The notes beneath the pieces were generated by a model. It searched no databases, was not told the DNA's origin, and was given only the letters and a program-made list of their open reading frames with translations. The translations under genes were made by a program, and so were the position numbers. Positions 6,343 through 30,096 of a stretch of DNA of 64,000 nt are shown here, one piece after another (within the stretch, counting starts at the first letter, position 1; every line of letters starts with the position of its first letter). Origin of the DNA: Longimicrobiales bacterium (GTDB lineage: Bacteria > Gemmatimonadota > Gemmatimonadetes > Longimicrobiales > RSA9); contig DATHUY010000147.1 of NCBI GenBank assembly GCA_035461765.1, forward strand, positions 1 through 64,000, read 5' to 3'.

Positions 6343-7032
6343 TCAGCTCCTGACGCGGCCGGGCGGCTCGAGGCGGGCCAGGGCGCGCAGATTGCCGCCC
6401 GCCCGCACCAGCAGCAGCGCCACCATCGTGAAGGCGGCGGCGAGCCCGAACACGTCGAACACGGTCGCCTGGATCCCGATGATGCTGAACGGGAGCGGCC
6501 CGATGGACAGCGCCGTCACGTTGAGTGCGATGAGGAGCAGGCGCACTTCGGTGGGTCCGAGGTTGCCGTAGCTGAAACGGAACTCCTCGAACACGTGCGT
6601 TTCGAGATACACGTTGATCGAGAGGAGCAGGTAGGCGATGACTATGGCCAGACCGACGGCGATGATCATGTAGGGTGAGAAGCCGAGCCCGAGCCCGATC
6701 GCAAGGGTTGAATAGGCGTCCGTCAGGTGATCCAGGTAGTAGCCGTAGCGCGGACGTTCGATCCTGCGATATCGCGCGAGCGTTCCGTCGAGGCTGTCAC
6801 CGAACCAGTTGACGACGAGTGCGGCATTGACGACCCAGAGCCACAGCTCATTGCGATTGGAGAGCGCGTACGCGGCGCCGATCGCCGTCGAGGCCAGCAG
6901 GCCCAGCACGGTCAGATGGTCCGGGACCACCCAGGCGGGAAGCCGCGCCGCCAGGCGCGGCAGTGCCCAGCGCTCGAAACGCTTCAGCACGAACTCCGAC
7001 GTGCGCGCGTGCTTACCCGACTCCGTTCCCAT
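6343..7032 (-). CDS. CDP-alcohol phosphatidyltransferase family protein
   Basis: An integral membrane enzyme that would transfer a phosphatidyl or phospho-alcohol group from a CDP-alcohol in phospholipid synthesis. The family signature is present around residues 78-105: DSLDGTLAR then GYYLDHLTD, with the Asp and Gly spacing of the D-G-x2-A-R-x8-G-x3-D-x3-D motif. About six hydrophobic segments can be seen, and 229 aa is typical. The acceptor (glycerophosphate, inositol, ethanolamine or other) cannot be inferred. ATG start, divergent from the small membrane protein gene at 7164. Confidence 0.88.
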   Translation of the reverse strand: MGTESGKHARTSEFVLKRFERWALPRLAARLPAWVVPDHLTVLGLLASTAIGAAYALSNRNELWLWVVNAALVVNWFGDSLDGTLARYRRIERPRYGYYLDHLTDAYSTLAIGLGLGFSPYMIIAVGLAIVIAYLLLSINVYLETHVFEEFRFSYGNLGPTEVRLLLIALNVTALSIGPLPFSIIGIQATVFDVFGLAAAFTMVALLLVRAGGNLRALARLEPPGRVRS

Positions 7033-7163
7033 GGCTACCCCTGTTCTCCCGAATGTCGTATCGGTGACACGCCGCCCTGCGGCCGCGATCCCCGGTCGCG
7101 GCCCTTCCCTTGCAATGTCCCTCCTTACAGCAGTCCGCTCAACGTGACAACATGGAGACCGTC

Positions 7164-7355
7164 ATGGCCGAGGGCGAACGTGGAGGTGGGAACGGCGGCA
7201 TCTACGCGATGCTGATCATCGTCGTGATCCTGATCCTGGGAGTGGCGCTGTACTTCTCCGGGATCATGGGCAATGGCGGCGGTGAGGACACGAACATCGA
7301 CGTCGACATCGAAGCGCCCGAGATGCCCGCGGGCGGCGGAACGGACGGCAACTGA
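7164..7355 (+). CDS. Small single-pass membrane protein
   Basis: A predicted 63-residue protein with one strong transmembrane helix (IYAMLIIVVILILGVALYF, about residues 13-31) and a short acidic, Gly-rich tail outside it (EDTNIDVDIEAPEMP). I chose ATG 7164 because GGAG at 7154-7157 is six bases upstream; an in-frame ATG at 7152 overlaps that site. It resembles widespread small, unnamed membrane proteins; no function can be assigned. A strong hairpin directly after the stop supports it as a real monocistronic gene. Confidence 0.6.
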   Translation: MAEGERGGGNGGIYAMLIIVVILILGVALYFSGIMGNGGGEDTNIDVDIEAPEMPAGGGTDGN

Positions 7356-20278: not shown

Positions 20279-20965
20279 ATGAAAATCCTGGTGATCGACG
20301 ACGATCCGCTCATCATCGAGTTCGTACGACGCGGGCTCATGGAGGATGGCTACGTGCTGGACGCCGCCGTCACAGCGAGCGAAGGACTTCTCTGCGCGCG
20401 CATCGGCAGCTACGATGCGATCATTCTGGATATCGGACTGCCCGACGCATCGGGCCTCGACGTGGCGCGCGAGATGCGCCGCGAGAGCGACGCCACCCCG
20501 ATCCTCCTCCTGACCGCACGCACCGGAACCGACAATCTAGTCGACGGCCTCGACGCCGGCGCCGACGACTATCTGACGAAGCCGTTCGACATCCGCGAGC
20601 TGCGCGCACGACTCCGTGCACTGACCCGGCGCGGCGGATCCACTCGCGCCGAGACCGTGCGCATGGGCGCACTGACGCTCGATCGACTCGACCACGAAGT
20701 GCGCATCGGCGACACGCCCCTCCGCCTCACACCCAAGGAGTACCTCCTCCTCGAGTATTTCATCCTGCGGCCCGGCACCGTCATCACGCGTACGGAGCTG
20801 CTCGAAAAGGTGTGGGAGATGAACTTCGACCCGCAGTCCAACATCGTGGACGTGCACGTCGCACGGCTGCGCAGCAAGCTCAGGGATTCGCCGGGTGTGC
20901 CGCAGCTGGAGACCGTCCGTGGATTCGGATTCCGTCTGAGCGACGCCGCCGCCGGCCTCGACTGA
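20279..20965 (+). CDS. OmpR/PhoB-family response regulator
   Basis: A 228-aa two-domain regulator. The receiver domain (1-120) has the acidic pocket DDD at 7-9, phospho-acceptor Asp51 (ILDIGLP), Thr of LLLTAR and Lys of YLTKPFD. The winged-helix DNA-binding domain follows (LTPKEYLLLEYFILRPG... VDVHVARLRSKL). It is closest in shape to the PhoP/QseB branch. No histidine kinase gene is adjacent, so it is an orphan here and its signal and targets are unknown. Confidence 0.93.
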   Translation: MKILVIDDDPLIIEFVRRGLMEDGYVLDAAVTASEGLLCARIGSYDAIILDIGLPDASGLDVAREMRRESDATPILLLTARTGTDNLVDGLDAGADDYLTKPFDIRELRARLRALTRRGGSTRAETVRMGALTLDRLDHEVRIGDTPLRLTPKEYLLLEYFILRPGTVITRTELLEKVWEMNFDPQSNIVDVHVARLRSKLRDSPGVPQLETVRGFGFRLSDAAAGLD

Positions 20966-21019: not shown

Positions 21020-21418
21020 TCATGAGTTCGACGCGATCACCCGCGTCACAGTCAGATGCCCGGCGGCATCGATGTGCAGAGAGGCACCCGCTTCGATCCT
21101 CCTGCCCGGCGCTTCCACCACTCCGACCCCGCGCCGCTCCTGGCGCAGGATACTGCCCTCACCAGCTCGAACAGGGATCGTCTCTTCCGTCACACCACCC
21201 GTCCTCACCCACGTGCTGCGCAGCAGACGCGTATCCGTGCCTTCCTTCACTGCCGTCTCCACGCGCAGCCCGGTACCCGCACTCCGCACGTTCAGCTCGA
21301 TGGCTTCTACCTCCGCCCGCTCCAGCACCACTGCGCTCACGCCAACGCTCTGCTGCGCGGACGCCGCGCCGGCGAACCCGGCGCCGAGCACAATCGCGAT
21401 CGATATTTCCCGGACCAT
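21020..21418 (-). CDS. Small secreted protein at the end of the fimbrial cluster
   Basis: A predicted 132-aa protein with a signal peptide (residues 1-22, ending ASAQ) and a beta-rich remainder (LRVETAVKEGTDTRLLRSTWVRTGG, LHIDAAGHLTVTRVI). I do not recognise a family. ATG 21418 is preceded by GGAG eight bases upstream; the open frame runs to 21481. It is on the same strand as the usher gene, 262 bases downstream. That gap carries several palindromes, so it probably has its own promoter. A role as an accessory or minor fimbrial protein is only suggested by position. Confidence 0.6.
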   Translation of the reverse strand: MVREISIAIVLGAGFAGAASAQQSVGVSAVVLERAEVEAIELNVRSAGTGLRVETAVKEGTDTRLLRSTWVRTGGVTEETIPVRAGEGSILRQERRGVGVVEAPGRRIEAGASLHIDAAGHLTVTRVIASNS

Positions 21419-21497
21419 CGCGTCATCTCCGTGGAGTGAGAGCCGCGATGTGGAAGGCGAGCATCGTGCCGCCGTCGTCATGACACCCTAAGCCATT

Positions 21498-21656
21498 GTG
21501 ATGACATCACTTAGAAACCCACTCCCAATTCGGCCCCGCTGTCCGGATTCCGGACGCCGGCTGGCAGGCCCTGGGGCGCGCGTGTCGGGATACACAGGAA
21601 AACCGGTGCATTCCGGTGAGGTGTCCGTATATCGGACAGCGCCCGAAGGTCGGACA
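21498..21656. promoter_or_regulatory. Cluster of operator-like palindromes
   Basis: Two copies of TGTCCG-N5-CGGAC(G/A) lie at 21540-21556 and 21622-21638, 82 bases apart, with an extra half site CGGACA at 21651-21656. GTGATGACATCAC, a 6-1-6 palindrome, is at 21498-21510. They fill the gap between the usher gene and the small secreted protein gene, both on the minus strand. They could be binding sites controlling the small gene, or hairpins ending the fimbrial transcript. Confidence 0.5.
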
Positions 21657-21680
21657 GCTGATGGCGTGAGCCGCCTGGCG

Positions 21681-24260
21681 TCAGCGGCGCTGGAGGTGGA
21701 TGGGCGGGATCTCGACGACCATCTCATCACCGGATCCGGTGATCGTGAACTCCGTAGCGGCGGGGATTGCCGAAGCGCCGATGGCATCGAGTGAAGCGGG
21801 TGAAACGGTGATGCGGTAGCGGCCCGGGCGAACGCGGCTCACGTAGAACATTCCGTCGGAGAACGTGACGGCGGTGAGTGCGACGCCGGAATCCACGTTG
21901 GTGATGTCGAGTGAGATACCGGCAACGGTAGGTACCTCCGTTGCGGCGGTGAGCATTCCGATCAGCTCGCTCGTATTGACGAGCTGGACATCGACGCGGC
22001 GCGCCATGTTCGGTGCAGGGCGGATAATGATATCGGAGCGGCTTGTGGTCAGGCTGGGATCGGGAGTGCGAGTGGAATCGATGGCGAGCTGGATAGGACG
22101 GTACGGCTGCATCCCCCAGATGCGGAAGCGGCCAGCGTCGTCGGAAACCGCGCGGAATCCGCCCGCGACGAGATGCGCGCCGGGGACGACATCGTCACCG
22201 TCGGAGAACACGTCATCACCGTTGCGGTCAATGAAGACGGTGCCGCGGAGCCCGGAGTAGCCGGTGCGCGCGGACGGATTCAGGGTGACGGATCCGTCGT
22301 GAGCGAACGACGTGCTGCCGCTCACACTGAATGAGCTGGACGCTACACCTGCGGCGCTGGAGACGGCGCGCAGAGCGGACTGTACGGAGCCGGTCCTGGC
22401 GCTGTAGCCGATCGACAGTGTCGGTCTCGAGCTGCCGCGGCTCCACTGCGCGCCTGCGGTGATCACGGCGTTGGCCCGTGGCTGCACCGAGACGCCAGCC
22501 TCAAGGATGCGGACTCCGATCTCACCGATGCCGATGCCGGCGTTGATGAGCGGACGGAGGGTCCGGGACCGGAAAGTGAACGGTGTGTAGACGGCCGCCC
22601 GGCCGGAGAGCAGATGTGTGCGCGCCGGGGTGTTGTCATGGTCATAGCGCGCTTCGAGGAAGCCTCGGCTGAAGCTGGCCATGGACGAGACACGCCAGCG
22701 CTCGAACTCGCCGAGCTCACCGGCGGCCGCGGCGCCGAAGCGCAGCTGCGAAAAGCGGGACTCACGTCGTTCGATGCGTTCATCCCAGTGGGCTTCCAGA
22801 TCCCAGCGCATGTCGCGTTCACGGACCAGGGATATGGGTCCGAACCCCGAGCGGGAGATGCTGCTCCGGACGCTCGCGCGCGATCCATCGCGGGGAAACA
22901 CGGAGACGTCGGCCGAGTAGAGCGAGAATGGCATATATGTGAGCTCTGCGGTCGCGCGGAGGCCGGACGACAGGCTGTAGACGAAGTAGGGCCGCAGGCT
23001 CGAGCCCGTGGTGTCGCGTATCATCTCGAACCCGCCGCCCACAGTGACGAGCGATGTGGCGCCATAGCGCACGTCGGCGTGCGCGAACTCGTCACATGCG
23101 GCGGCGCACGCCCCTGCGGCCACAGAGTATTCGACCGCATCGCGACGCAGCAGAGACACGGGAGTCTGGTAGAGCAGCGTCGTCACCACTTCCTCGCCGG
23201 CGGGTCCGTACATCCGGACCTGGACGGGCGTCGTGCCGCTGCGGAGCGGCACCGCAACCGGATCGACCGATGCGATGTCGGAATAGCCGAGCAGCTGATT
23301 GCCCTGAAACACTTCGTATTCCCAGCCCGCCGGCAGGTCCGGCTGCACGAGCACGGCGCTGAGCTCGTGACTGCGAAGGAAGGGTCGGTTGCTGATCTCG
23401 ACGCCGCGCAGGAAGCGGGCGAAGAGACCGTTCGTGACGATGTCCCCCGCACTCACCTGAGCGATGTAGCGACCCTGCGGAAACACGCGGTGATATCGTA
23501 GTGTCGCATCGCGTACGTGGTCCGCGGCATCACTGCCGATCTCGAAGACGGCACCAGCACGCAGATCGCCCCCGAGTAGTGCGACGCCGGCATCACTGCG
23601 TACGGTGGTGAGTCGCGTGGGGTCGAGCCCATTGGTCGCGATCTGCCAGTCGACGATGCCGGCACCACTCAGGGGCGCGTATGCCGCGGCCTGCAGCTCC
23701 TGATTCTCCTCCAGCTGACGCTGCCGCGCGAGCAGCACCGCGCGCCGCTGCTCCGCGATGATCCGCTGCTGCGCAGGGAATGCGACTTCGCGTGCGATCG
23801 CGACGCTCAGCGTCGCGTAATCGACGCGCACGGTCGCCTCGAGGAGCGCGGCAACGCGCTCGGCGCGCAGATAGACGAGCGGACCATGCAGTGTGATTTC
23901 GGCGGGAGCGAGCTGAACGGACGACTCGCCGACGGTGAGTGTGTTCGTTGCGGTATCGAGCTGCGCTGCGCCGCCGGACAGACGCGGAATGGTGAGGACC
24001 GGGCCCGACCAGGCTGCGGCCAGGCCGAGATACCAGCTGACGTGCTCGAGCGGGAGCAGCATGCTGCCCGCAGAGTCGACAAGGACGATCAGGGTCAGCG
24101 GCGGCAGTCTCTCCGCGACCAGCTCGACAATGCCCTCCTCGTACGGGCCCGTTTGTGCGAATGCGGCGGATGTCAGGCCGGAAATGGCGAGGCAAAGCAG
24201 AAGCGCCGACCGGAGGAACAGCACCGGTCGGCGCAGGACGCCGCGTCGACCGACGATCAC
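21681..24260 (-). CDS. Fimbrial usher-like outer-membrane protein (atypical)
   Basis: An about 859-aa outer-membrane protein that should receive chaperone-subunit complexes and extrude a fimbria. A signal peptide (ending AAFAQ) is followed by an N-terminal module of about 120 residues (DSAGSMLLPLEHVSWYLG, LVYLRAERVAALLEA) that resembles a copper-amine-oxidase-N-like or stalk domain rather than the usual usher NTD. The middle has usher features: GDIVTNGLFARFLRGVEISN, then a plug-like domain (FQGNQLLGYSDIASVDPVAVPL). The C-terminus has GTVFIDRNGDDVFSDGDD, a SdrD_B-like repeat. The start is uncertain: TTG 24278 or GTG 24260. It overlaps or abuts the upstream pilin gene. Confidence 0.7.
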   Translation of the reverse strand: MIVGRRGVLRRPVLFLRSALLLCLAISGLTSAAFAQTGPYEEGIVELVAERLPPLTLIVLVDSAGSMLLPLEHVSWYLGLAAAWSGPVLTIPRLSGGAAQLDTATNTLTVGESSVQLAPAEITLHGPLVYLRAERVAALLEATVRVDYATLSVAIAREVAFPAQQRIIAEQRRAVLLARQRQLEENQELQAAAYAPLSGAGIVDWQIATNGLDPTRLTTVRSDAGVALLGGDLRAGAVFEIGSDAADHVRDATLRYHRVFPQGRYIAQVSAGDIVTNGLFARFLRGVEISNRPFLRSHELSAVLVQPDLPAGWEYEVFQGNQLLGYSDIASVDPVAVPLRSGTTPVQVRMYGPAGEEVVTTLLYQTPVSLLRRDAVEYSVAAGACAAACDEFAHADVRYGATSLVTVGGGFEMIRDTTGSSLRPYFVYSLSSGLRATAELTYMPFSLYSADVSVFPRDGSRASVRSSISRSGFGPISLVRERDMRWDLEAHWDERIERRESRFSQLRFGAAAAGELGEFERWRVSSMASFSRGFLEARYDHDNTPARTHLLSGRAAVYTPFTFRSRTLRPLINAGIGIGEIGVRILEAGVSVQPRANAVITAGAQWSRGSSRPTLSIGYSARTGSVQSALRAVSSAAGVASSSFSVSGSTSFAHDGSVTLNPSARTGYSGLRGTVFIDRNGDDVFSDGDDVVPGAHLVAGGFRAVSDDAGRFRIWGMQPYRPIQLAIDSTRTPDPSLTTSRSDIIIRPAPNMARRVDVQLVNTSELIGMLTAATEVPTVAGISLDITNVDSGVALTAVTFSDGMFYVSRVRPGRYRITVSPASLDAIGASAIPAATEFTITGSGDEMVVEIPPIHLQRR

Positions 24261-24261
24261 G

Positions 24262-24846
24262 TCAGTAGACCTGAACAATCGTCAGTGTCACGGTGCCGGT
24301 GTAGACACCGGCACGCGCTGTTGACGGCACGGAGAGACGGCCGCCCACGTAAACGCCGAGCTCGGTGGCAGGAGGAAAGAACCGGTTCGGATGACAGGTC
24401 AGATTGGGTCGCGTCTGCTGACAGACGCGCACCGATGCGCCAGCCGGATCGAAACCGGTGAGTACGCAGCCGGATCCGCCCGACGTCACACACCAGCCGC
24501 CGTACTGCGCGCCGGTCGACGTCAACGTCAGCGGCGGGAGTGAGCCGCTCGTGAGCGTCGCCGGCATGGTCAGGCTGAAGTCGAGACCGGCTACTCCCGC
24601 CACGTCGTAACGGAACTCGCCGGCCTGGATCGAGCCGCTCTGCGGTGCGGCAGCCGCGACCACGTCGACATCGACGGTCTGGCCGACGAGCGGTGTAATC
24701 GCGCCGAAGGTGAGATTGCGCACGCCCGCCCCGGTCGGCGAGCGGACCGGAACGGATGCGGCGACGTTCACCTGCTGCGCGTCCAGAGGACTGGCCGTGA
24801 CCAGCAGCGCGACGGCGAGCAGCATCGTCCGGTGACGCACAATCAC
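24262..24846 (-). CDS. DUF4402-like pilin/tip protein
   Basis: A 194-aa secreted protein. The signal ends near SPLDAQ. RNLTFGAITPLVGQTVDV is the conserved start of DUF4402 domains, which are immunoglobulin-like fimbrial subunits that need a chaperone. The domain is larger than its two paralogues in the cluster and has extra Cys pairs (GWCVTSGGSGCVL, VRVCQQTRPNLTC). That would suit a tip or adhesin-like subunit. The GTG start overlaps the chaperone stop by four bases (GTGA), indicating translational coupling; an ATG at 24825 is an alternative. Confidence 0.75.
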   Translation of the reverse strand: MIVRHRTMLLAVALLVTASPLDAQQVNVAASVPVRSPTGAGVRNLTFGAITPLVGQTVDVDVVAAAAPQSGSIQAGEFRYDVAGVAGLDFSLTMPATLTSGSLPPLTLTSTGAQYGGWCVTSGGSGCVLTGFDPAGASVRVCQQTRPNLTCHPNRFFPPATELGVYVGGRLSVPSTARAGVYTGTVTLTIVQVY

Positions 24847-25703
24847 CTCACGTCGATCATGCCGCTGACTGCCGGCGCCGTGATGATATTTGCCTGGCCC
24901 AGCTCCGGCCGCTCCGTTGACAGCCGGTAGCGCACGCGCGCGGCGTTCTCCATGCCGGGCACGGTGAACCGGCGTCGCAGCGTGCGATAGACGGAGACCA
25001 CGTCCTGCTCTTCGTGCAGCACGTTGCCCGCTGCGTCCAGTACCTCGATGCCGATGTGCCCCAGGTACGCCGCCTCGCCCTGGCGGGCCATGTCCAGCGT
25101 GACCTGGAGTCCGTCCGCAATGCGTTCCGCTCGTGTATCCGTGAGCTGGATGCCCGTCGTCAGAGCGCCCTTCCGATAGTTCAGCGAAGCCACGATGATG
25201 GTGCGCATGCTGATCGCCACACGGACATCGGGCTGCACCTGCTGCTCCACGGGCGGACGACCGCCCGTGGCGGTCACCAGAACTCGCGACCAGTACTCAC
25301 CATCCTCGATCCCGGCCGGCGGCTGGGCAAGGATGCGCACGACCTGCTGCTGTCCCGGCTGGAGCACCAGGCGGCGCGGAAACGCGCGCAGCCACGGCAC
25401 CGCCGACGGCTCGCCCTCGGGCGCTGCAGCGGAGAGCGGTACCGTCACATTGCCGACACTGTCCGACTGCGGGTAGCCGAACGCGAACGAGATCTCGATC
25501 TCTTCGGGCAGCGGATTGGGATTGTAGAGCGTGACCGTGCCCGTCCGGTTCGTATGACTCAGGAACACGGACATCGGGCTCACGGACACGGCCCGCAGTG
25601 CCGCCGCCCCGGCGCCGAGCAGCGCGACGATGGCGGCTGCCGCGATGATCGCGCTCCGCCGCGCCGCGGCGAAATTCATTCCGATATTCATACTGCCGCT
25701 CAT
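24843..25703 (-). CDS. PapD-like periplasmic pilus chaperone
   Basis: A 286-aa protein with a signal or membrane anchor (about residues 12-35) and two Ig-like domains. The first has SVSPMSVFLSHTNRTGTVTLYNPNPLPEEI and PWLRAFPRRLVLQPGQQQVVRI, the classic G1-F1 region of fimbrial chaperones. It would hold subunits in a folding-competent state and pass them to the usher. ATG 25703 has AAGGG at good spacing. It follows the second pilin gene by 10 bases and overlaps the third. Confidence 0.82.
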   Translation of the reverse strand: MSGSMNIGMNFAAARRSAIIAAAAIVALLGAGAAALRAVSVSPMSVFLSHTNRTGTVTLYNPNPLPEEIEISFAFGYPQSDSVGNVTVPLSAAAPEGEPSAVPWLRAFPRRLVLQPGQQQVVRILAQPPAGIEDGEYWSRVLVTATGGRPPVEQQVQPDVRVAISMRTIIVASLNYRKGALTTGIQLTDTRAERIADGLQVTLDMARQGEAAYLGHIGIEVLDAAGNVLHEEQDVVSVYRTLRRRFTVPGMENAARVRYRLSTERPELGQANIITAPAVSGMIDVR

Positions 25704-25713
25704 CCGTTTCCCT

Positions 25714-26187
25714 TCACGTTCCTGTCTGGACGACCATGACCACGATCGTCGCCGAATAGAACCCTGCCATCTGCGCCGCCGCCGGCATGGCCTGCCCACC
25801 GAGGTTCAGCTGCGCCTCACGCTCCGCGGGATTGATCCGGAACGACGTCGTCGTCGACGGATCGAACGAAGTCACTTTGCGGCGGATCGTCAGCAGCCCG
25901 GCGTCGGCGCCGAACACCAGCGGGATGGTGTGCCCCGCGGGCGAAGTCAGCTGCGCCGGCAGCTGGAATGACACCTGATACGTTCCACGGCCGTCTATCC
26001 TCAGCTGCGCGCTGCGGATCAGATCCGTCGGAGCCACGACCGTCGCTACTCCAGGGGTAATCTGACCGAAGTCCAGGTTCCGCTCCGACGCCACGAGCAC
26101 CTGCGCCGCTGCGGTGCCTGCTCCCGCGACGGAGACCACGAGCACCGCAAGCGCCGCCAGGGCCGCACGCATGATTCGTGGTCTCAT
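25714..26187 (-). CDS. DUF4402 fimbrial subunit-like protein
   Basis: A 157-aa secreted protein. The signal is residues 1-26 (ending GTAAAQ). RNLDFGQITPGVATVV opens the DUF4402 domain and GFYSATIVVMV is the typical closing strand. It is probably a structural fimbrial subunit. ATG 26187 and ATG 26199 are both possible: AAAAGG lies 12 bases before the first and directly against the second. The short gap upstream is unusually A/T-rich for this window and might hold an internal promoter. Confidence 0.72.
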   Translation of the reverse strand: MRPRIMRAALAALAVLVVSVAGAGTAAAQVLVASERNLDFGQITPGVATVVAPTDLIRSAQLRIDGRGTYQVSFQLPAQLTSPAGHTIPLVFGADAGLLTIRRKVTSFDPSTTTSFRINPAEREAQLNLGGQAMPAAAQMAGFYSATIVVMVVQTGT

Positions 26188-26270
26188 CGCGTGTATCATC
26201 CTTTTAATATTGCACCAGCCACCGGCCGACGCACCCACGTCAGTGCGCCGACCGGCGGCCGAACGACGCA

Positions 26271-26753
26271 TCAGCGCGCCGTCAGCACGATATCGAACGA
26301 GGCCGTGTAGGTACCGGCCGCCGCATTCGCCACGTCGGCCGCGAGGATCGTCCCGCCGAATCCGAGGGTAGCGACGGTCTGCGCGGCGCCGACGTCGATG
26401 TCGAACGAGGCAGCGCTGCAGGCAGAAGCCGCCGACCACACGGCGCCCAGCTCCCAGGCGCAGTTCAGTACGACCGGCAGATCCGTCAGGCCTGCGCTGC
26501 TGAGCGCGGTCGGCACGTTGGAAAAGCTGACCGTCAGGTCATGGTTGTACGTCAGCGTCCGAGTGACCGTGCCCGCCGTCGCATCGATCGTGTTGTCAAC
26601 GGTCGCGCTCAGCGTACCGAAGTCCACGTCGCCGCTCCCTGTGACTGCCGACGCCGGGTTGACCGTCGCCGTTGCGACCACCGTCTGCGCACTGGCCATC
26701 GCCGGCAGAACCAGGATCGCCACCGCGGCCGTCAGTATCATCTTCTTCAGCAT
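26271..26753 (-). CDS. Major pilin-like protein (DUF4402/spore-coat-U type)
   Basis: A 160-aa secreted protein with signal residues 1-22 (ending AMASAQ). The body is Ala/Thr/Ser-rich and beta-stranded, with GSGDVDFGTLSATVDNTIDA at the start, one Cys pair (LNCAWELGAVWSAASAC), and the closing strand AAGTYTASFDIVL. This fits a chaperone-usher pilin that forms the main shaft. First gene of the cluster; GGAGG lies four bases before the ATG. Length is typical for such subunits. Confidence 0.75.
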   Translation of the reverse strand: MLKKMILTAAVAILVLPAMASAQTVVATATVNPASAVTGSGDVDFGTLSATVDNTIDATAGTVTRTLTYNHDLTVSFSNVPTALSSAGLTDLPVVLNCAWELGAVWSAASACSAASFDIDVGAAQTVATLGFGGTILAADVANAAAGTYTASFDIVLTAR

Positions 26754-27080: not shown

Positions 27081-27881
27081 TCAGCCGCCGAGCAGTGCGC
27101 GGATCTCGGGAGGCGGGTTGAAGGCGGAGTCGGGCACCTCGTTGAGCGTCACACGACGGAGCGTGACCACCTGATCCACACCGTCGACCTGCGTGGTGAT
27201 TCGCGTCGGCAGCCGTGCAGCGCCGAACATCTGGTAATCCTCATAAAGGATGAGCGCTTCGGTCGGACCCGTGCTCGACTCATGCGTGCGCACGGATCCG
27301 ATCAGCAGACCGGACTCGACGCTGTAGCAGTCGCTCGTCTCGCGCCCGGTCTTCCAGATCGTGTGCACCTTGAAGCAGTCATGGCCACCCAGCGTGGTGC
27401 GCTCGATGGTGGTCATGGAATCGATGAGCTCCGCGGTCCGAAGATGCGAATCGAAGTGGGCATCGTCCTCCGCCTGCCTCGCCTCGGGGCCGGCCAGAAT
27501 ACGCGGCCCTTCCACGGGATCCACGGACCAGCCGTTCTCACCGTTGTAGCCCGTCCGCACCTCGCCGTAGCCCGGTACGGACGCGACCATGACCGTGCGA
27601 TTCGGCCGCCCCTGCCAGATCTCCAGCGTGCCCGTGATCCCCGCCACCGGGATGGACACCTCGCCGACGGAGTGGAGCGACCGAATGTTCGCAAAGGTCG
27701 CAGCGCCCATCGCTTCATGGTAGCGGGCGACGATCTGCTCCGCGCCAGGCAGCGCAGCCGGTGCGGGCGCAGGGACCTGCGCCGCGGCGGGTCTCGGTGC
27801 GTGCGAGACGGCCGCGAAGACGGCGAGAGCCGCTGTCAGCGATCGGCCCGCGGACCTGAGTCTGAGCTGTGGTAATGTCAT
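27081..27881 (-). CDS. Exported protein, outer-membrane lipoprotein-sorting (LolA-like) fold
   Basis: A 266-aa protein. Signal residues 1-35 (ending RPAAAQV). The remainder (EQIVARYHEAMGAATFANIRSLHSVGEVSIPVAGITGTLEIWQGRPNRTVMVASVPGYG and later DCYSVESGLLIG) follows the beta-sheet pattern of LolA/LolB-like and DUF620 proteins, which bind lipids or act as periplasmic carriers. No lipobox is visible. ATG 27881 has GGAGG four bases upstream. It is separated from the LytTR regulator by a repeat element. Confidence 0.68.
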   Translation of the reverse strand: MTLPQLRLRSAGRSLTAALAVFAAVSHAPRPAAAQVPAPAPAALPGAEQIVARYHEAMGAATFANIRSLHSVGEVSIPVAGITGTLEIWQGRPNRTVMVASVPGYGEVRTGYNGENGWSVDPVEGPRILAGPEARQAEDDAHFDSHLRTAELIDSMTTIERTTLGGHDCFKVHTIWKTGRETSDCYSVESGLLIGSVRTHESSTGPTEALILYEDYQMFGAARLPTRITTQVDGVDQVVTLRRVTLNEVPDSAFNPPPEIRALLGG

Positions 27882-27902
27882 CGGACCTCCGAAACACCCA
27901 TC

Positions 27903-28088
27903 CGGACGCGGCACCCGTTCTGCAAAATGACCGATCCGGCCATATTCTCGCTGAATGCCCGGACCGGGCGCAACGGCCGGCGCCGCGCCATGCCGCGCGA
28001 AGCCGCCCCGCAGCCGGTCAGGAGCCGCCACTGGAAGGGCGCGGCCAATGGCGGATTGTGGCGAGGTGCAAAAGGGGTTCCGCGTCCG
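27903..28088. repeat. 186-bp element with terminal inverted repeats, copy 2
   Basis: The left end at 27903 begins CGGACGCGGCACCC and continues TTCTGCA after one base. The right end at 28067-28088 is the reverse complement over 22 bases with three mismatches. Both ends match the element at 6204-6334. The interior is GC-rich with stems (CCCGGACCGGG, CGGCCGGCGCCG) and no credible gene. It lies between two minus-strand genes, as copy 1 does. Confidence 0.75.
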
Positions 28089-28134
28089 ACGACGTCGTTA
28101 CCCGACGACGTCGTTACCCGACGACGTCGTTACC
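28087..28134. repeat. Three perfect 16-bp tandem repeats, each with a palindrome
   Basis: CGACGACGTCGTTACC is repeated three times without change at 28087-28102, 28103-28118 and 28119-28134. Each unit contains ACGACGTCGT, a perfect 10-bp palindrome. The array begins at the outer edge of the inverted-repeat element, and the last unit overlaps the stop codon of the LytTR regulator gene. It could be an operator array or a recent slippage product. Confidence 0.85.
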
Positions 28135-28900
28135 GCGAGCTCTGAAGCAGTTCCTGCAGCCGTTCCCGGTACCCGCGGCTCGACGTGAGTCGCGTGCCGT
28201 CGTCCAGCACGACGACGTAGTCGCCCTGGAACAGTGGTTCCAGCTCCCTGATTTTGTCCACGCGGACGATCGTCGAGCGGTGGATGCGGACGAAGTCCGT
28301 GGGGTCCAGCTTGGCCTCGAGCGCCGTCATGGTCTCGCGCAGCAGGTACTCGCGGCCGCCCGCGTGCAGCCGCACGTAGTTGGAGGCGGCTTCGACCCAG
28401 TCTATCTCTGCAACGCGCAGGATGAGGATGCGGCCGCCCGACCGCACGACCAGTCGCTCCAGGTACTGGCTTCGACTCCGCAGCTCGCCGAGCAGCAGCT
28501 CGAGCCGGTCGTCCATCGTGGACTGGCGGCGACCGTTCACCTGCATACGCGCGCGCTCCACTGCGCTGCGGAAGCGCTCCGTATCGTACGGCTTGAGGAT
28601 GTAGTCGATGGCGTGGGCATCGAATGCCCGCAACGCAAACTCATCGTACGCGGTCGTGAAGACGGTCACCGGCATGTGCGGCGCGCCCACTGCGTCCAGC
28701 ACCGCGAAGCCATCGAGCCCGGGCATCTGCACGTCGAGGAACAGCAGGTCGGGGCGCAGTGTCTCGATCTGCGTGACTGCTTCCTCTCCCGTTCCGGCCT
28801 CTCCGACAATCTCGATGTCGGACTCTGCTTCCAGATGCAGCCGCACGCCCTCGCGCGCGAGCGGCTCATCGTCGACGATGATCGCGCGAATAGCTTTCAT
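28130..28900 (-). CDS. LytTR-family response regulator
   Basis: A 256-aa cytoplasmic regulator. The receiver domain (1-120) has DDE at 10-12, phospho-acceptor Asp56 (LFLDVQMPG), Thr of FTTAYDE and Lys of ILKPYD. The LytTR DNA-binding domain covers about residues 148-250 (VRSGGRILILRVAEIDWVEAASNYVRLH, FVRIHRSTIVRVDKI). GAGGAG precedes the ATG. The partner sensor kinase gene is 47 bases upstream on the same strand, so the two form a classic AlgR/LytR-like pair. Confidence 0.94.
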   Translation of the reverse strand: MKAIRAIIVDDEPLAREGVRLHLEAESDIEIVGEAGTGEEAVTQIETLRPDLLFLDVQMPGLDGFAVLDAVGAPHMPVTVFTTAYDEFALRAFDAHAIDYILKPYDTERFRSAVERARMQVNGRRQSTMDDRLELLLGELRSRSQYLERLVVRSGGRILILRVAEIDWVEAASNYVRLHAGGREYLLRETMTALEAKLDPTDFVRIHRSTIVRVDKIRELEPLFQGDYVVVLDDGTRLTSSRGYRERLQELLQSSR

Positions 28901-28947
28901 GATCTCCTCAATGCTGGTGCAGAACGCGTTCGACGAACGCGCACGTT

Positions 28948-30096
28948 TCAGACTGCGGCCGTCTGGAGATCTGCTTCCAGCGGCTCACCTTCGTACTGAC
29001 GCAGTGGCAGCCGTACGGTTGCACACGCGCCTCCCTCGGCCCTGTCGGAAAGGGTCAGTTGTTGCCGGCTGCCGTAGAGCTGCTCGAGCCGCGCACGCGT
29101 GTTGGCGAGGCCCACTCCGTTGCCGTCGCTCGCTGCGGTGGCGTCCACACCGGGTCCCGTATCGAGGACGCGCAGCTCGAGCCATTTGCCATCCATGGCG
29201 TCCGCTTCCACCCGGACCACGCCGGGGCCCGCGCGGCGTGAGATACCGTGCCGGATCGCGTTTTCGACGAGCGGCTGAAGCACCAGGGACGGCACTTCCG
29301 CGTCGAGCACGGCCGGATCGATATCGCGTTCGACCGTCAGCCTGTCGCGAAAGCGGACGTTCTCGATCTCGAGATAGCAGTCCAGGATGGCCAGTTCGTC
29401 GCGCAATGACAGTACGTGCTGCCGGTTATCAAGTGACAGCCGCAGGAGGTCGCTCAGCAGCATCAGCATCCGCACTACACCCTCCCGCTCCCCCTTCATC
29501 GCCATCACCGAAATGGCGTTCAGCGTGTTGAACAGGAAGTGGGGATTCAGCTGCATCCGCAGAGAGTCCAGCTTCGCGCGCGACAGGCTTGCCTCGAGGC
29601 GCGACGTGCGCAGCGCCAGCCGCGCCGCCTGTCCCTCCCGCTCACGGTAGCGACGACCGTAGTCGTAGGCGTTGTACGCACCCACCACCGCGAAATAGGT
29701 CAGGAGCTCCAGCACGAAGAACGTTGTCAGCAGTCGCGAAAGGCTCTCGCTCAGGCTCCAGGGGGGCTGAGGACCGCGCGACAGCACGTAGTCGCCCAGC
29801 CAGCTGGAAGCGGCGACGTGGAGGAATGCGAACAGGACTGCCGCCAGGAGGTGCAGCGGCAGCGTCCGGTGCCACCGGACGGGCTCCAGCGGAAAGCGAC
29901 GCGACAGCCACACGATGGCGGGCACGAGAAGCAGCAGAACGTACCACGACGGCAATGTGGAACGCAGTGCGTCGAGCCAGCTGATCGGCCGGTCCATCGC
30001 GGCCATGCCGGCGTAGAGCTGGGCCGCCTCGATCAGGCCGATCAGGGTCGCGGCACCGAACCACGCCAGCAATATTTTCTTTTTCCGCCGGATCAT
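28948..30096 (-). CDS. LytS/AlgZ-type sensor histidine kinase
   Basis: A 382-aa membrane kinase. The N-terminal half has four hydrophobic segments (about residues 8-30, 48-66, 80-100, 120-142) with no recognisable sensor domain. The kinase core begins at about 175: LRMQLNPHFLFNTLN with phospho-acceptor His186, the signature of the His_kinase (LytS) family. The ATPase part has PLVENAIRHGI (N box) and DTGPGVD/GVGLANTRARL (G boxes). It would phosphorylate the LytTR regulator encoded just downstream. A small palindrome, GTAAG-AC-CTTAC, lies 37-48 bases before its start and could be an operator. Confidence 0.93.
   Translation of the reverse strand: MIRRKKKILLAWFGAATLIGLIEAAQLYAGMAAMDRPISWLDALRSTLPSWYVLLLLVPAIVWLSRRFPLEPVRWHRTLPLHLLAAVLFAFLHVAASSWLGDYVLSRGPQPPWSLSESLSRLLTTFFVLELLTYFAVVGAYNAYDYGRRYREREGQAARLALRTSRLEASLSRAKLDSLRMQLNPHFLFNTLNAISVMAMKGEREGVVRMLMLLSDLLRLSLDNRQHVLSLRDELAILDCYLEIENVRFRDRLTVERDIDPAVLDAEVPSLVLQPLVENAIRHGISRRAGPGVVRVEADAMDGKWLELRVLDTGPGVDATAASDGNGVGLANTRARLEQLYGSRQQLTLSDRAEGGACATVRLPLRQYEGEPLEADLQTAAV

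Follow-up and report, generated by a model that had tools for sequence, protein, structure and literature searches.

A chaperone–usher operon with a divergent outer-membrane usher in a Longimicrobiales bacterium

Results and Discussion

A Six-Gene Minus-Strand Cluster

We read the open reading frames of the window, by which we mean the whole 64,000-nucleotide stretch of Longimicrobiales DNA that was analyzed, and found six consecutive minus-strand ORFs at 21020–26753, in agreement with a preliminary description that had placed a six-gene cluster there. Along the minus strand the order is subunit–subunit–chaperone–subunit–usher, followed downstream by a small secreted ORF, and the stops and starts around the chaperone, s3, and the usher nearly touch or overlap. 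The sixth gene encodes a separate small secreted protein, whose kinship and relation to the fibre proposed below are uncertain. The genes, together with the two usher regions that had been called atypical, are as follows:

26271–26753, minus strand: subunit s1, 160 aa, with a signal peptide; spore-coat-U/DUF4402-like (SCPU E = 0.0089; subunit HMM E = 1e-34)
25714–26199, minus strand: subunit s2 (DUF4402 E = 1.2e-5; subunit HMM E = 1e-42); start uncertain, at 26199, 26187, or 26172
24843–25703, minus strand: PapD-like periplasmic chaperone, 286 aa (weak PapD_N match, E = 0.13, in a single-sequence Pfam search)
24262–24840, minus strand: subunit s3 (DUF4402 E = 5.7e-8); start at GTG 24840 or ATG 24825
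21681–24260, minus strand: divergent outer-membrane usher, 859 aa, with a GTG start adjacent to the 3′ end of s3
23745–24164, minus strand: N-terminal region of the usher, residues 33–172, the "copper-amine-oxidase-N-like" stretch
21690–22280, minus strand: C-terminal domains CTD1 and CTD2 of the usher, residues 661–857, SdrD_B-like and CarboxypepD_reg-like
21020–21418, minus strand: small secreted protein (orf6), 132 aa, ~260 bp downstream of the usher, with a donor-strand-like N terminus

The cluster had been said to hold three subunits of the DUF4402/spore-coat-U type, a PapD-like chaperone, and an usher-like protein of about 860 aa, and each of these assignments is upheld. Two of the subunits match DUF4402 and the third matches spore-coat-U weakly; the large protein, 859 aa from GTG 24260 to 21681, is homologous to ushers by profile–profile alignment; and the chaperone is firm only through its relatives. 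In profile–profile comparison it reaches 99.7% against its counterparts in the Pseudomonadota cassettes and 96.7% against archaic chaperones, and two of these Pseudomonadota counterparts exceed the PapD_N cut-off.

Profile Alignments Place the Large Protein among the Ushers

Single-sequence searches of Pfam, NCBIfam, and the PDB gave no usher match for the window protein, whose sole Pfam match was CarboxypepD_reg, and searches of the operon proteins against NCBIfam and PDB sequences returned nothing relevant. The usher family PF00577 had no match in this protein or in the window's genome, and it passed its gathering score in none of the seven family-bearing genomes scanned; a few relatives carry weak, sub-cut-off matches (best E = 0.0015), and no NCBIfam model reaches its cut-off on this usher family.

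To compare whole families, we used a profile of 39 ushers, 32 from Gemmatimonadota (the window's included) and 7 from Pseudomonadota plasmids. The reference ushers were five classical (FimD, HtrE, YehB, ElfC, and YraJ of E. coli K-12), eight archaic (including one from Gemmatimonadota, genome G032), and four alternative (EcpC and relatives, taken from E. coli K-12 and from environmental or non-toxin plasmid records). One Caballeronia usher, present as only a short open frame, was left out. Aligned with hhalign against the archaic ushers, the 39-usher profile yields a probability of 99.7, an E-value of 1.8e-26, and a score of 232 over 693 columns; the classical ushers give 97.2% (score 102), the alternative ushers 87% at best (scores 26–61), and reversed decoys at most 6%. 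As a yardstick, accepted pairs of classes score 420 (classical–archaic), 99 (classical–alternative), and 102 (archaic–alternative).

Because the alignment with archaic ushers lies far above the reversed decoys, we regard it as decisive for assigning the 859-aa protein as an usher. Its predicted domains follow the usual usher order, NTD–barrel–plug–barrel–CTD1–CTD2: mapping to FimD places the NTD at residues 33–172, the barrel at 202–291 and 372–660, the plug at 292–371, CTD1 at 661–763, and CTD2 at 764–857. The domains are collinear with those of FimD at about 13% identity; the plug and CTD1 are the best-aligned parts, and the barrel portion aligns shorter than in FimD (~379 vs. 443 residues). 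A conserved plug signature, GD..T.G...R..RGV..TNAPF.RP ... LPPGWE.E.Y..G.L ... YG.NPV....YGP.GE, is apparent in the alignments. A full-length AlphaFold2 model, with two sequences as input, had a pLDDT of 31 and was unusable. The usher of the nearest named relative, the metagenome-assembled genome SH-MAG3, is 68% identical to that of the window.

Public annotation, like the single-sequence family matches to CarboxypepD_reg and SdrD_B and nothing else, would suit a protein of the outer membrane or cell surface that carries carboxypeptidase-regulatory/SdrD repeats, is not related to ushers, and lies near a chaperone by chance. We consider this extremely improbable in view of the long profile alignment to ushers, plug included, and of the chaperone and subunit genes that constantly accompany it, both in the 33 loci and on plasmids.

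The Terminal Regions of the Usher

The preliminary description had a copper-amine-oxidase-N module replacing the usher NTD, and this claim is not borne out as worded: PF07833 has no match in the window usher, and in relatives it is found in 2 of 13 close ones (best E = 9.4e-4) and, when a wider group of 29 was scanned, in one (E = 0.02). A model of residues 33–172 (pLDDT 66.7, pTM 0.62) contains a strand–helix–strand–strand pattern twice, which may explain why copper amine oxidase N-domains had come to mind. The fold search that had been proposed was run, for the N-terminal part, on this model and gave no PDB match with an E-value below 1e-3; the copper amine oxidase N fold was absent from the top PDB matches, and the FimD NTD stood at rank 19 (E = 1.4, TM 0.28–0.30), a weak match that is only suggestive. 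A profile comparison confined to the NTD reached a nonsignificant 16.5% with the known NTD. By alignment, the stretch holds the NTD position, either as a diverged NTD or as a replacement.

At the other end of the protein, the SdrD_B-like EF-hand-type repeat had been correctly seen as a motif (it is present in 28 of 29 members, and a CarboxypepD_reg-like stretch in all 29) but not as an atypical module. CTD1 and CTD2 are small beta-sandwich domains in all ushers. The part carrying the SdrD_B-like DRNGDDVFSDGD loop falls on the CTD1 of normal ushers, and the CarboxypepD_reg match on their CTD2. A profile search of the PDB with the usher retrieved nothing but fragments of NOMO and SdrD, matched by the CTDs. 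A C-terminal domain of similar kind occurs in the alternative (alpha) pathway of CS1/CFA-I and the E. coli common pilus, where the CooC_C domain of EcpC also matches CarboxypepD_reg weakly (E = 1.2e-4). As aligned, the SdrD_B-like and CarboxypepD_reg-like stretches are CTD1 and CTD2 and not additions, and the terminal domains of the usher have not visibly been swapped for foreign modules.

Subunits and a Candidate Tip

Signal peptides are present on the subunits, whose last strand is of the AG.Y.G..TLTV.Y type, like that of other chaperone–usher (CU) pilins. Both s2 and s3 belong to DUF4402, and s1 scores 16.8 bits against SCPU, below the cut-off of 22.4; in profile–profile comparison the subunits reach 93% against archaic subunits and 98.7% against those of the Pseudomonadota cassettes. 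All are small and single-domain, and no two-domain adhesin was found in the operon.

A subunit with extra cysteines had been proposed as the tip protein. The extra cysteines are there, with four in s3 as compared with two in mature s1 and none in s2, but the tip assignment is doubtful. In the window, 22 residues precede the FG motif in s1 and 23 in s3, vs. about 11 in s2, the last being a direct reading that was left out of the count because its automatic cleavage call was poor. Across the cassettes compared, for which signal-peptide cleavage sites were set by a simple ad hoc rule, the median is 14 residues in s2 vs. 26 in s1 and 27 in s3 (Mann–Whitney 7e-6 and 7e-4, respectively). The short N terminus is common to the positional counterparts of s2 elsewhere, two loci (L032 and L084) being exceptions to the s2/s3 pattern, and the stretch before the first FG motif in s1 and s3 has alternating hydrophobics, e.g., QTNNASITATATVLTPINV. 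Since the tip of a CU fibre is the subunit that lacks a donor strand, s2, with its short N terminus, is a candidate donor-strand-less tip or cap subunit; s1 is a probable shaft subunit with a donor strand, and the Cys-rich s3, whose N terminus has donor-strand length, is probably not the tip.

Occurrence in Gemmatimonadota and on Pseudomonadota Plasmids

The usher profile scores above the 150-bit threshold in 56 of 298 Gemmatimonadota genomes, or about a fifth. Most of the 204 matches in this search came from short CarboxypepD/SdrD segments of other proteins and were disregarded, and one candidate usher, L034 (G023:C302), was rejected as a TonB receptor. Of the 33 loci examined, 32 have a PapD-like chaperone next to the usher, and the remaining one is truncated by the end of its contig. 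Likewise, in 32 of the 33 the usher is accompanied by one to four members of a single subunit family; usually two subunits precede the chaperone, and often one stands between chaperone and usher. DUF4402 is found in 52 of the 298 genomes, 49 of which have a strong usher match, and seven usher genomes lack it (Fisher p = 1e-44 for co-occurrence, with kinship not corrected for). PF00577 is found in only two: as an archaic usher in G032 and as a sub-cut-off match within a member of the usher family in G072. The G032 protein (L085, 5967–8324), the only over-cut-off PF00577 usher among the 298, resembles ordinary archaic ushers, and Gemmatimonadota thus contain both lineages.

Spread outside the phylum was judged from plasmid records, in which the same cassette occurs on seven Pseudomonadota plasmids, from Sphingopyxis indica, Novosphingobium THN1 and ES2-1, Polaromonas JS666 and E5S, and two Pseudoalteromonas. 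These belong to the same family (usher profile–profile 100%, score 623; chaperones and subunits as given above) and differ in that the usher gene comes immediately after the chaperone gene, without an intervening subunit. Their annotation reads DUF4402–chaperone–"carboxypeptidase regulatory-like," and none that is annotated is named an usher. One Pseudoalteromonas usher (L096, 5161–8349) has a C-terminal SPOR domain (E = 6.7e-5), and the other Pseudoalteromonas cassette (L094) is flanked by SPOR-domain genes at 1409–1894 and 6711–7349, hinting at a possible placement on peptidoglycan or at the division site. Among loci L095, L106, L092, L093, and L107, the plasmid-borne Polaromonas cassettes have IS6 transposases nearby, and those of Sphingomonadaceae are on plasmids typed conjugative; because of the latter, the cassette can be taken to move between bacteria.

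Relation to the Known CU Classes

We carried out the usher phylogeny that the preliminary description had proposed as a check. In a full-length tree of 56 ushers (LG+C20), the Gemmatimonadota and Pseudomonadota members lie on one side with an SH-aLRT of 99, and a further tree, built on a different alignment of the plug and CTDs only, has the same split (SH-aLRT 96); classical, archaic, and alternative ushers stand together on the other side of both. Letter composition differs among the tree groups. An AU test with eight archaic ushers did not reject a grouping with them (p = 0.284). All three components, usher, chaperone, and subunits, score best against the archaic class in profile–profile comparison (186–232, 74–88, and 37–48, respectively). 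From the two-tree split, the AU test, and these scores, we infer that the usher represents a deep separate lineage nearest to the archaic one and possibly branching beside it.

The archaic (sigma) pathway, exemplified by Csu and CupE, shares with this system the logic of subunit, chaperone, and usher and the domain order of the usher, and the system could be a fast-evolving offshoot of that pathway, or its sister, with no class of its own. The best scores of all three components fit such an origin, as do the nonsignificant AU test and the weak match of s1 to SCPU, the archaic subunit family. However, these ushers form their own branch in both trees, opposite the archaic and classical ushers, which stay together; PF00577 and PGAP recognize archaic ushers but not these, which NCBIfam also misses; and the subunits are DUF4402 rather than SCPU, s1 lying below the SCPU cut-off. 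Unlike the archaic operons fetched, those of this family often have a subunit between chaperone and usher and have no large subunit after the usher, and unlike archaic ushers, their ushers have a longer NTD and a CTD1 with a DxNGNGxxDxGE-type loop. On this balance we find an archaic offshoot or sister somewhat unlikely.

The other two classes are further away. Alternative ushers, for all the likeness of their C-terminal domain, give the lowest profile scores and a separate branch, and PF16967 (TcfC) and PF15976 (CooC_C) were found in none of the 29 members scanned, both being present in the EcpC control. Classical ushers have collinear domains, as seen with FimD, but differ in their low identity, in PF00577 remaining below cut-off here, and in their chaperone and subunit families.

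The claim of an unusual, poorly described usher class thus finds support in the missing PF00577 match, the separate branch, and the literature we searched, mostly without subscription papers, in which no published description of this usher family was found; an earlier notice is possible. Archaic CU systems are known from Proteobacteria, Cyanobacteria, and Deinococcus-Thermus (PMC4654587), and the remark that CU systems are mostly described in Proteobacteria was somewhat narrow. Whether the family amounts to a fourth deep CU class, found in Gemmatimonadota and three Pseudomonadota classes and marked by DUF4402 pilins, an elaborated NTD of two strand–helix–strand–strand units, fibres of single-domain subunits only, and a donor-strand-less tip encoded beside the chaperone, seems to us an evenly balanced proposition.

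A Proposed Assembly Pathway

The gene content and order, their conservation, the homology of all three components (usher, chaperone, and subunits), the grouping of the ushers apart from the known classes, and the pattern of N-terminal lengths are direct observations. Alongside them, we think it quite probable that the locus is a complete CU operon for a thin fibre on the cell surface, built of single-domain Ig-like DUF4402/SCPU subunits and assembled through an usher of a deep lineage common to Gemmatimonadota and some alpha-, beta-, and gamma-proteobacteria. In the pathway that we propose, subunits bearing the signal peptides seen here would be exported by Sec, and the PapD-like chaperone would complete each by donor-strand complementation. 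Chaperone–subunit complexes would then dock on the outer-membrane usher, which would replace the strand lent by the chaperone with the next subunit's N-terminal extension and extrude the fibre. Subunit s2, whose gene immediately precedes that of the chaperone, lacks the extension and would sit at the tip, and s1 and s3, which have it, would be polymerized behind; the fibre may have a role in adhesion.

A true usher system might also export a non-pilus product, such as a capsule-like fibrillar coat or a short surface adhesin, in place of a long fimbria. CU systems that build non-fimbrial structures are known (PMC4390875), and the small, single-domain subunits and the lack of a two-domain adhesin in the operon would be compatible with such a product; on the other hand, two to three different subunits with donor-strand-type N termini suggest an ordered polymer, and we judge a non-pilus product unlikely. 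On the fibre reading, a largely uncultured phylum would gain a concrete surface-fibre machine, and the usher offers a new deep branch for asking how ushers and donor-strand exchange evolved. Annotation by PF00577 and NCBIfam misses the lineage altogether: a PF00577 usher is seen in almost no Gemmatimonadota genome, vs. about one in five with the usher described here. The lineage also explains many genes named "DUF4402 domain-containing protein" and "carboxypeptidase regulatory-like domain-containing protein."

Genes and Sequence Features around the Operon

Small secreted ORFs lie 3′ of several ushers: at 21020–21418 in the window, 9603–9992 in L024, 8904–9323 in L028, and 2241–2666 in L029. 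They share a donor-strand-like N terminus (AQ...SATVxxR...), are well below subunit length, and show only weak similarity; perhaps they act as a terminator or anchor. In the window, the gap between usher and orf6 (21530–21680) contains an exact palindrome, TGTCCGtatatCGGACA, at 21622–21638 and a second, TGTCCGgattcCGGACG, at 21540–21556 with one mismatch, 0.47 palindrome matches per window being expected by chance; the two are a possible operator for the small downstream gene.

Upstream of the operon and on the same strand, a LytTR response regulator and a LytS-like histidine kinase are encoded at 28130–30096, with one gene of unknown family (27081–28031) between this pair and the operon. On the opposite strand, an OmpR-type response regulator (20279–20965) adjoins orf6.
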